In this document: in pieces, positions 5,540 to 7,203 of the stretch
Numbering within the stretch: position 1 is the first letter of the stretch
How the letters are laid out: every line of letters starts with the position of its first letter
Origin: a virus
Strand: one strand, 5' to 3'
Length of the DNA: 24,535 bases
IMG/VR virus record: IMGVR_UViG_3300030389_002517
Location: 1 to 24,535 of that record
Translations under genes and position numbers: made by a program
Notes under the pieces: model-generated
Seen by the model: the letters and a program-made list of their open reading frames with translations, nothing else
Database searches by the model: none
Told to the model about the DNA's origin: nothing

Positions 5540-5860
5540 CTAGATTTCCGTAATCACCAACCCTACGTAACACGCTTCCACCAGTTTCTTTTTCAATCGA
5601 TAGACAGATGTCTTGTAGCCTTTGACGTCTTCCACAACAATCGCACTGCCATTCGGTGTCAATTTTGTATATTTGAAATCCGCGATGTAATTGCATATGT
5701 GTCTCCCACCAATACTTATGTCAAACTTGGGCTGTAATTCCAGCCGTTCTATCTCTCCAGCACTCTGCAAGGCCCTCAATTCTACGTACCGTTTTGCTTC
5801 TTTTTTGCTGGCAAAGGAAACCCCATCGATTTCGGTTCGTTTAGCTCTGTACTTTGTCAT
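5540..5860 (-). CDS. DUF1064-type PD-(D/E)XK nuclease
   Basis: This 106-residue protein matches the DUF1064 phage family over its length. It opens MTKYRAKRTEIDGVSFASKK, then EAKRYVELRALQSAGEI, ELQPKFDI, YIADFKY, VVEDVKGYKT and YRLKKKLVEA. The fold is predicted to be a PD-(D/E)XK nuclease. The candidate catalytic residues are all present: E21 in SKKEA, D61 in ADF, and E77/D78 with K80 in EDVKG. Such proteins are thought to cut branched or structured DNA during phage replication and recombination, but I know of no firm substrate. It overlaps the methyltransferase end by 20 nt and lies between it and the DnaA-domain gene. A restriction partner for the methylase is conceivable but less likely, since DUF1064 genes are usually found without one. 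Confidence 0.82.
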   Translation of the reverse strand: MTKYRAKRTEIDGVSFASKKEAKRYVELRALQSAGEIERLELQPKFDISIGGRHICNYIADFKYTKLTPNGSAIVVEDVKGYKTSVYRLKKKLVEACYVGLVITEI

Positions 5861-6992
5861 CCTCTATCTTTCTGATCACAATACCGATTTGCTCTACAAT
5901 CTGAGGCACTAGCGCATTTCCCAGCGCCTTTAGCTTTTGTGTTCGCATTTCTGCCCCTTTGATGATTCTGGGAATGTCTGGTGGCTCGAAGTCAAATCCT
6001 TCATGTCTAGCCAGCCTCGCGGAAAGCCCATCATCCAGCATACCCAGTCTGGATTTAATGTTCCTTGTTCCCAATCCTCTTTTGTTGCTCCTCTTATTTC
6101 GGGATGATTGCCCAGCATTTTCTGCATATTCCCATTCGGTGTTCCGCAAGCATCCTCGTTTGCGGTCGGTGTCGGGTAGAGTTTTTCGATATGATTTACT
6201 GCGTCCTTCAGCTTCACTCCCCAGCGTACTCCGTCCTTGTTCTTGCGTGAGAACGAGCCGTTCCGCAGTTCCACATTCTTGACTACTCCGCCCTCGATGT
6301 CTGACACGCGAGGTGTCGGGTACATCCGCATGGTCACTGGGTTGACTTGCTCCCTTAGATTTGATGGACGAGTGCGACCTTTGCGGTGTCCTTCCATCAT
6401 TTTCTGGGTGGCTGCCGAACTCCTCTGAGGTAGATGATCCATTGTATTGGGTGTTGCCCACCAGCCACTGTTCATTGACGGTGCTAGCTGGTTCGCTTTG
6501 GCGGTTGGTGTGTGCAATAATGAAGATTCGGTTTCTGAGGTGCGGTGCATTGACGGAGCAAGCTGGAAGACAAAATGTTTGGACTTCGTAACTGGCTTTA
6601 TCTTCCAAGTCAGATAACACGCGGTCGAGCCCCAAGGCGATGTGTCCAGCCACGTTTTCAAAAATGCACCAGCTAGGCTGTTTGGCTTGCACAATCTCAA
6701 ATATTTCTCCCCAGATATAGCGGTCATCTTTTTCGCCACGTTGCAGTCCAGCGACACTAAATCCTTGGCATGGGTATCCAGCGGTGAGGATGTCGCAGTC
6801 TGGAACAAGTCTAGCTGGGTCACGCGCAAGCTCCGTTACATCTTCTGCAATCGGCACATGTTGCCAGTGTTTTTTCAGTATACTGCGACACCAGGAATCC
6901 AGTTCGCAGAACAAAACTGGCTCTGATAAGCCAGCCCATGACAACCCTAATGCAAACCCACCGATGCCACTGCATAAATCAACGTGCCTCAC
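5841..6992 (-). CDS. C5-cytosine DNA methyltransferase (Dcm-type)
   Basis: The enzyme transfers a methyl group from S-adenosylmethionine to cytosine C5 in DNA, probably to protect phage DNA from host restriction. The 383 residues show motif I DLCSGIGGFALG (5-16), motif IV GYPCQGFS with catalytic Cys75, motif VI ENV (112-114), motif VIII ending in R153-N-R155, and motif X ALGNALVPQ (about 356-364). The segment from about 160 to 340, where the target-recognition domain should be, is poorly ordered in appearance. It is rich in Ser, Arg, Asn and Thr, with recurrent D-T/N-T motifs (PDTSRVR, PDTDRKRG). This oddity coincides with a second reading frame on the same DNA (5930-6823). The start is GTG 6992, overlapping the regulator gene by 14 nt. 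The target sequence cannot be deduced, and no cognate endonuclease is evident. Confidence 0.9.
   Translation of the reverse strand: MRHVDLCSGIGGFALGLSWAGLSEPVLFCELDSWCRSILKKHWQHVPIAEDVTELARDPARLVPDCDILTAGYPCQGFSVAGLQRGEKDDRYIWGEIFEIVQAKQPSWCIFENVAGHIALGLDRVLSDLEDKASYEVQTFCLPACSVNAPHLRNRIFIIAHTNRQSEPASTVNEQWLVGNTQYNGSSTSEEFGSHPENDGRTPQRSHSSIKSKGASQPSDHADVPDTSRVRHRGRSSQECGTAERLVLTQEQGRSTLGSEAEGRSKSYRKTLPDTDRKRGCLRNTEWEYAENAGQSSRNKRSNKRGLGTRNIKSRLGMLDDGLSARLARHEGFDFEPPDIPRIIKGAEMRTQKLKALGNALVPQIVEQIGIVIRKIEDDKVQS
5930..6823 (-). CDS. Nested gene in a second frame of the methyltransferase: conserved phage protein with TPTA and MGFP-x-GW motifs
   Basis: A 297-codon frame lies entirely within the methyltransferase gene, same strand, +1 frame. 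It begins at GTG 6823 with GGAG 7 nt upstream and gives MTQLDLFQT. I recognise the following from phage/prophage proteins often labelled hypothetical or cytosine methylase: AFLKTWLDTSPWGSTACYLT and W-K-I-K (residues 53-75), FQLAPSMHRT (86-95), LLHTPTAKAN (102-111), ATPNTMD, YPTPRVSD (168-175), YPTPTANED (216-224) and LNPDWVCWMMGFPRGW (256-271). These are too many and too well ordered to be chance. The D-T/N-T motifs of the methylase are the other-frame reading of the TPTA repeats. Both start codon and ribosome site look usable. Function is unknown; it may act with the methylase. The alternative is that database hits in this frame are themselves mistranslations of dcm-like genes. Confidence 0.62.
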   Translation of the reverse strand: MTQLDLFQTATSSPLDTHAKDLVSLDCNVAKKMTAISGEKYLRLCKPNSLAGAFLKTWLDTSPWGSTACYLTWKIKPVTKSKHFVFQLAPSMHRTSETESSLLHTPTAKANQLAPSMNSGWWATPNTMDHLPQRSSAATQKMMEGHRKGRTRPSNLREQVNPVTMRMYPTPRVSDIEGGVVKNVELRNGSFSRKNKDGVRWGVKLKDAVNHIEKLYPTPTANEDACGTPNGNMQKMLGNHPEIRGATKEDWEQGTLNPDWVCWMMGFPRGWLDMKDLTSSHQTFPESSKGQKCEHKS

Positions 6993-7203
6993 TAATCAGC
7001 CTGTTTACTCTGTCAGATACATCTAAGTCTTCCATATGTGTCGGTGGCTCATGGTGTAATGCCGATGGTGCGCGTCTTCGCATTTCCTGACGCAGTACAA
7101 ACTCAGTAAAACTTGCCATGCTTCTGCGTTCTTTTTTTGCGTGTTCTGTGAGCCACTGATGCACTTCTGGGCTGATGCGTACAAATAATCCTATGGTATC
7201 CAA
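6979..7203 (-). CDS. Ribbon-helix-helix (CopG/Arc-like) regulator
   Basis: Starting from TTG 7203, which has GGAG 6 nt upstream, the product has 74 residues. An N-terminal β-strand GLFVRISPEV is followed by two helices, VHQWLTEHAKKERRSMASF and TEFVLRQEMRRRA, the classic ribbon-helix-helix order. In this order the F-V-R-I strand pairs in the dimer and reads the major groove. The rest is a polar tail. A longer frame runs to 7281 but its extra residues look non-coding and lie in the divergent promoter region. It is the first gene of the leftward unit and overlaps the methyltransferase start by 14 nt. It probably regulates its own promoter and perhaps the divergent rightward promoter. An octamer repeated at 11-bp spacing lies in that region (separate entry). 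Confidence 0.75.
   Translation of the reverse strand: MDTIGLFVRISPEVHQWLTEHAKKERRSMASFTEFVLRQEMRRRAPSALHHEPPTHMEDLDVSDRVNRLISEAR

Follow-up and report, generated by a model that had tools for sequence, protein, structure and literature searches.

The locus at positions 5841-6992 of the window (the whole 24,535-nucleotide stretch of viral DNA analysed here) very probably encodes a naturally split C5-cytosine methyltransferase, whose two polypeptides, alpha and beta, are read from overlapping frames and form one active enzyme in which beta picks the target. The alpha frame (5841..6992, minus strand, GTG start) encodes 383 amino acids and was assigned by alignment with M.HhaI and by its matches to PF00145 (3.9e-38) and TIGR00675 (5.1e-31). 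The beta ORF (5930..6823, minus strand), assigned by phrog_1008 and by selection tests, lies wholly inside the alpha ORF in frame +1 relative to it; it is open from TTG at 6829, its first in-frame start, or from GTG at 6823, and its stop codon lies at 5932-5930. The 297 codons of this nested frame, its GTG start and a Shine-Dalgarno-like GGAG (6831..6834, minus strand) 7 nt upstream, all described in the initial annotation, were confirmed in the sequence. We infer that alpha and beta assemble and that the enzyme methylates DNA, and likewise its target sequences and the part played by each module.

The alpha protein carries motifs I, IV (PCQ), VI (ENV), VIII and X, as had been claimed from the letters and as motif and profile alignment bore out. 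Motifs I to VIII (DLCSGIGGF ... PCQ ... ENV ... RNRIFIIAH) are encoded at 6510..6980 and motif X (ALGNALVPQ) at 5901..5927, starting 2 nt beyond the beta stop codon, both on the minus strand. The alpha profile covers residues 13-173 of M.HhaI, the part with motifs I-VIII, and matches motif X weakly; HhaI 174-297, where the recognition domain and motif IX lie, had no equivalent in this alignment, and no motif IX was found ahead of motif X in alpha-type frames. In the structural model residues 1-165 reach a pLDDT of ~95 and the motif X helix is also confident, residues 168-346 lie mostly below 50, and the predicted fold resembles HhaI/HaeIII across no more than about 169 columns. Alpha, without motif IX and the small domain, is an incomplete methylase, and its stretch between motifs VIII and X is predicted to be mostly disordered. 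As pLDDT and codon phases indicate, this linker (5955..6491, minus strand) is the alpha-frame reading of the beta recognition region.

Beta comprises, all on the minus strand, an N-terminal part (MTQLDLF ... LTWK ... FQLAPS; 6515..6823) read over alpha motifs IV-VIII, conserved in relatives and assigned with the z test given below; a recognition region (6062..6514) of four TP modules (about 6514-6464, 6463-6323, 6322-6182 and 6181-6062), assigned from modules shared with different phages and from module statistics; and a motif IX-like segment, TLNPDWVCWMMGFPRGWLDM (6002..6061). The C-terminal end of the protein reads TLNPDWVCWMMGFPRGW. The ordered motifs and four TP stretches listed in the initial annotation are all present; the DNA of alpha motif VIII does read FQLAPSMH in the other frame, and two PDT stretches of alpha correspond to Y-P-T-P stretches of beta, as had been described. 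The product matches phrog_1008, labelled 'DNA methyltransferase' (8.5e-24), as do 53/53 aligned relatives, and gave no match to Pfam and NCBIfam; phrog_1008 is a sequence family for which no mechanism is stated, and its label is silent on the nesting and on a role as recognition subunit. The motif IX-like segment has the form LNPxWVxWMMGFPxGW, and in profile-profile comparison with canonical methylases the best match of beta is motif IX (RxLTPRExxRLQGFPDxF), in the right place and register and with a weak score (P 0.08; 0.016 with the beta C-terminal part). The AlphaFold model of beta is poor, and neither Foldseek nor VIA-align returned a fold match for it; weak PDB sequence matches to CRISPR Csf1 (E 0.16) were judged to be chance. 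On the Paenibacillus polymyxa plasmid pAP1 (L203:1302-2792) two motif IX-like copies (GQLNPxWVECLMGFPxxW) lie in the +1 frame with stops between them, as if the beta end had been duplicated.

Stronger support than this direct profile match for placing motif IX on beta appears to come from rearranged relatives. At three loci (L055, L239 and L269) the beta frame continues into motif X, and alpha ends after motif VIII or within the linker. Against a ten-sequence database the beta profile matches the stretch before motif X in mycobacteriophage MeeZee gp77 (1e-13) and in the one-chain Gordonia phage Derg gp4 (1e-7). In MeeZee a second overlapping gene encodes the TP-module region together with motif X (gp78/gp77; L192:1474-2569), and in Derg gp4 the two are part of one chain (L199:1501-2886); beta-like remnants are still present in the Derg +1 frame. 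By these sequence matches, beta is homologous to the regions that recognise the target in other phage methylases, both split and one-chain. Beta could instead have a function of its own, as a regulator, an anti-restriction factor or an inhibitor, and merely overlap a complete methylase; neither solved structures nor curated Pfam families give it a name, and its N-terminal part is no known methylase domain. We consider this improbable, however, given that the methylase frame is incomplete, lacking motif IX and the small domain, that beta-type sequence runs in-frame in MeeZee gp77 and Derg gp4 and, at the three rearranged loci, is fused to motif X, and that beta occurs without alpha at no locus.

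Within the proposed split enzyme, beta has a conserved start site of its own. A start codon with a Shine-Dalgarno sequence, typically aaAGGAGttagcnaATGACCCAG, is found at the beta site in 159/202 relatives versus 29% of control windows, which favours independent initiation of beta over frameshifting. A shift from alpha into beta would give a fused chain of motifs I-VIII, recognition region and motif IX, with motif X coming from the unshifted product, and would fit the rearranged relatives, in which alpha stops just past motif VIII and the beta frame goes on; it is nonetheless very unlikely, because of that conserved start site and because the beta N-terminal part is conserved and selected upstream of any useful shift point.

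Both frames of the proposed split methyltransferase are maintained, and the nested one is not due to chance. When the methylase codons of the window were shuffled synonymously, 6.1 stops were expected on average in the nested frame and none is present (P=0.002), and the third frame showed no depletion (24 stops versus 22 expected). Frequent +1 stops in homologous methylase genes, which the initial annotation had named as evidence against a nested gene, are absent: over 89 loci 0 were counted versus 473 expected from synonymous shuffles, a test flattered by nested ORF bounds that are themselves set by stops, and the +2 control gave 1551 versus 1558 expected. All 111 loci recruited by the nested frame carry the relative in +1 of a methylase frame, with nested ORFs of 176 to 602 codons, some ended by contig edges. 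Since these loci had been picked via the nested frame, a second sample was recruited by the methylase frame alone, in which the bias from stop-set bounds is absent and many contigs recur from the first; the nested frame lies in +1 at 78/78 classifiable loci, and at 75 of the 78 the +1 frame is stop-free from motif IV to motif X. The bacterial genome loci show the plain arrangement in 76/80 cases, the remainder being rearranged or interrupted. In canonical methylases of phages and of the same genomes, where motif IX is part of the methylase frame itself, the +1 frame contains 4-24 stops, versus 0-1 in alpha types.

Codon phases indicate which frame is selected along the gene. The mismatch rate at methylase codon positions 1/2/3 was taken from DNA alignments favouring neither frame (72 independent pairs); the window is too diverged to enter these pairs and is covered by the shuffle, z and linker-stop tests. 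The rates are.165/.102/.418 before the overlap and.171/.095/.263 over motifs IV-VIII, where third positions are strongly damped, so that the reduced synonymous change expected of a real overlap is observed (.263 versus.418). Between motif VIII and the nested stop they become.328/.147/.158, a pattern seen in 47/52 pairs, and return to.174/.126/.438 past it; as the nested third position is methylase position 1, the former is the signature of the nested frame. In the z test the window was compared with 109 loci over motifs IV-VIII, where the alignment is unambiguous; similarity in the nested frame exceeded that implied by the methylase residues with a median z of 4.7, the controls giving 0.4 before the overlap and 2.3 in the +2 frame. 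Beta is under protein-level selection across the family, and in the distal overlap of the relatives the codon phases show amino-acid selection in the nested frame and none in the methylase frame. The alpha linker is stop-free in 178/196 loci, with rearranged or extended loci as the largest exceptions, and in the window it holds 0 stops versus 4.75 expected. The phase switch and the open linker together show that the frames are reciprocally overprinted, the first ~100 residues of beta on the alpha catalytic motifs and the alpha linker on the beta recognition region. Two loci (L020:3474 and L205:3153) have a single in-frame stop in the alpha linker with beta open, due either to a sequencing error, to readthrough or to a separately made motif X piece.

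These results refine the earlier view that both frames are functional over 894 bp, which holds for the proximal overlap; in the distal two thirds amino-acid selection is found in the nested frame only. The idea of a new protein overprinted on a methylase is right for the part of beta that covers the catalytic motifs, with the correction that the methylase beneath is incomplete, and the suggestion that the odd target-recognition region is shaped by the nested gene survives in the sense that this region is a passenger reading of beta, free of amino-acid selection of its own by codon phases. The nested frame could be no gene but a by-product of codon constraint on the methylase, which has a negligible probability: the methylase motifs do lie over the first 100 beta codons, where some conservation is necessarily common to both frames, but the synonymous shuffles, the pre-overlap and +2-frame controls and the phase switch all contradict it.

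In the split methyltransferase as we read it, the TP modules sit between the N-terminal part of beta and motif IX, each opening with [W/L/Y]-x-T-P, with a median of 40 residues and usually 1-4, at most 7, per protein. The best matches of the four modules of the window are 79-100% identical and lie in different loci, many of which have alpha N-termini just 29-50% identical; such matches beside diverged alphas indicate module shuffling. At L106:2483-4288 a beta frame of 602 codons continues after motif IX with five further TP modules and runs about 690 nt beyond the alpha stop, where it is non-overlapping; this looks like an extended recognition-module array, and the overlap is thus not needed for the modules. 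Multispecific phage C5 methyltransferases of the SPR, phi3T and SPbeta type contain recognition modules of ~40 residues between motifs VIII and IX. Their arrays are similar to those of beta but belong to one chain in one frame; by analogy each module of beta may have its own target, the multispecificity being suggested here by the module repeats. We tentatively suggest, as a possibility somewhat short of an even chance, that beta is an array of exchangeable cassettes, each ~40-residue module reading its own DNA sequence and being shuffled between phages, with alpha fixed and the linker tolerant provided that it is stop-free. If true, the overlap would be a way to switch methylation specificity without touching the catalytic chain, and specificity changes would perhaps track host restriction.

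The arrangement is widespread. A tblastn search with the nested product gave 69 phage records, mostly of Paenibacillus larvae phages, several of them with both overlapping frames annotated as methylase. Scans of viral contigs gave 27 relatives at first and later at least 457 stretches, and 354 bacterial genome stretches hold beta relatives; the genome-locus titles include Bacillota, Bacteroidota, Pseudomonadota, Acidobacteria, Planctomycetes, Treponema, Nitrospirales and others, in a patchy distribution (7/99 genomes within one bacterial family). The homologues sought in the initial annotation, nested or free-standing, all lie in methylase genes, some of them motif X-fused or part of one chain, and no truly free-standing one was found in the viral, phage, plasmid and genome collections. 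Two candidates for a free-standing homologue, a Lacticaseibacillus 'hypothetical protein' and a frame on a Paenibacillus bovis plasmid, are actually nested in methylase frames. A scan with alpha as a single protein found no relatives, because its patterns came mostly from the unconserved linker.

In the window, G+C is about 0.50-0.52 over the methylase (6000-7000) versus 0.38-0.44 on both sides, which could reflect recent acquisition or double coding. A DUF1064/Holliday-junction-resolvase-like ORF (5540-5860) adjoins an ORF with a DnaA C-terminal helix-turn-helix domain (PF08299; 5208-5696, minus strand) of a phage replication module.

Two-polypeptide C5 methyltransferases have precedents, M.EaeI being one like M.EcoHK31I. 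The larger polypeptide of M.EcoHK31I contains motifs I-VIII and X with a predicted recognition domain and the smaller one contains motif IX, and M.AquI is split between motifs VIII and IX (PMC3404938). By this published description the window locus shares with M.EcoHK31I (YGGCCR) motifs I-VIII and X on the large subunit, and its small subunit carries a putative motif IX. For EcoHK31I, the small subunit is reportedly read in an alternative frame from within the gene of the large one (Lee, Kam and Shaw, 1995), a nesting shared by the window locus. The two differ in that the recognition domain of M.EcoHK31I is predicted in the large subunit, a published placement that speaks against our reading, whereas here the selected recognition region belongs to the small nested subunit and is modular. 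Given the probable motif split and the nested frame, the window locus is best described as EcoHK31I-like, with recognition moved to beta and modular; both would be of the same kind if the EcoHK31I recognition domain itself sits in beta, and a re-check of its published location is suggested. M.AquI (CYCGRG) is likewise made of two polypeptides with the break between VIII and IX, but has motifs IX and X both on the small subunit, whereas motif X stays on alpha here; nesting in another frame is a feature of the window locus and not of M.AquI, whose form is resembled by L055, L239 and MeeZee gp78/gp77. Searches of the available literature for a described phage family of nested-frame methylases found none, and the family scale, the in-gene switch of the selected frame and the modular recognition arrays in beta are new.

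In the mechanism that we propose, alpha would provide the catalytic large domain (motifs I-VIII, a disordered linker and motif X), the linker being a mere alpha-frame reading of the beta gene. Translation of beta would start at its own internal ribosome site and give a new N-terminal part over the alpha motifs, followed by ~40-residue recognition modules and then motif IX; alpha and beta would assemble into one active enzyme, the DNA target being chosen by beta. The evidence supports the earlier idea of a hidden partner, perhaps steering specificity. For large numbers of 'DNA cytosine methyltransferases' of this type in phages and prophages the annotation gives a single protein; with the recognition subunit in an unannotated frame, one frame cloned by itself would be expected to seem inactive or to have a specificity that cannot be assigned. 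As an example of overlapping genes the family is unusually clear and abundant, with two enzyme halves mutually part-overprinted and the selected frame switching within the overlap, and it turns M.EcoHK31I from a lone biochemical curiosity into a widespread, testable system represented at hundreds of phage and bacterial loci.
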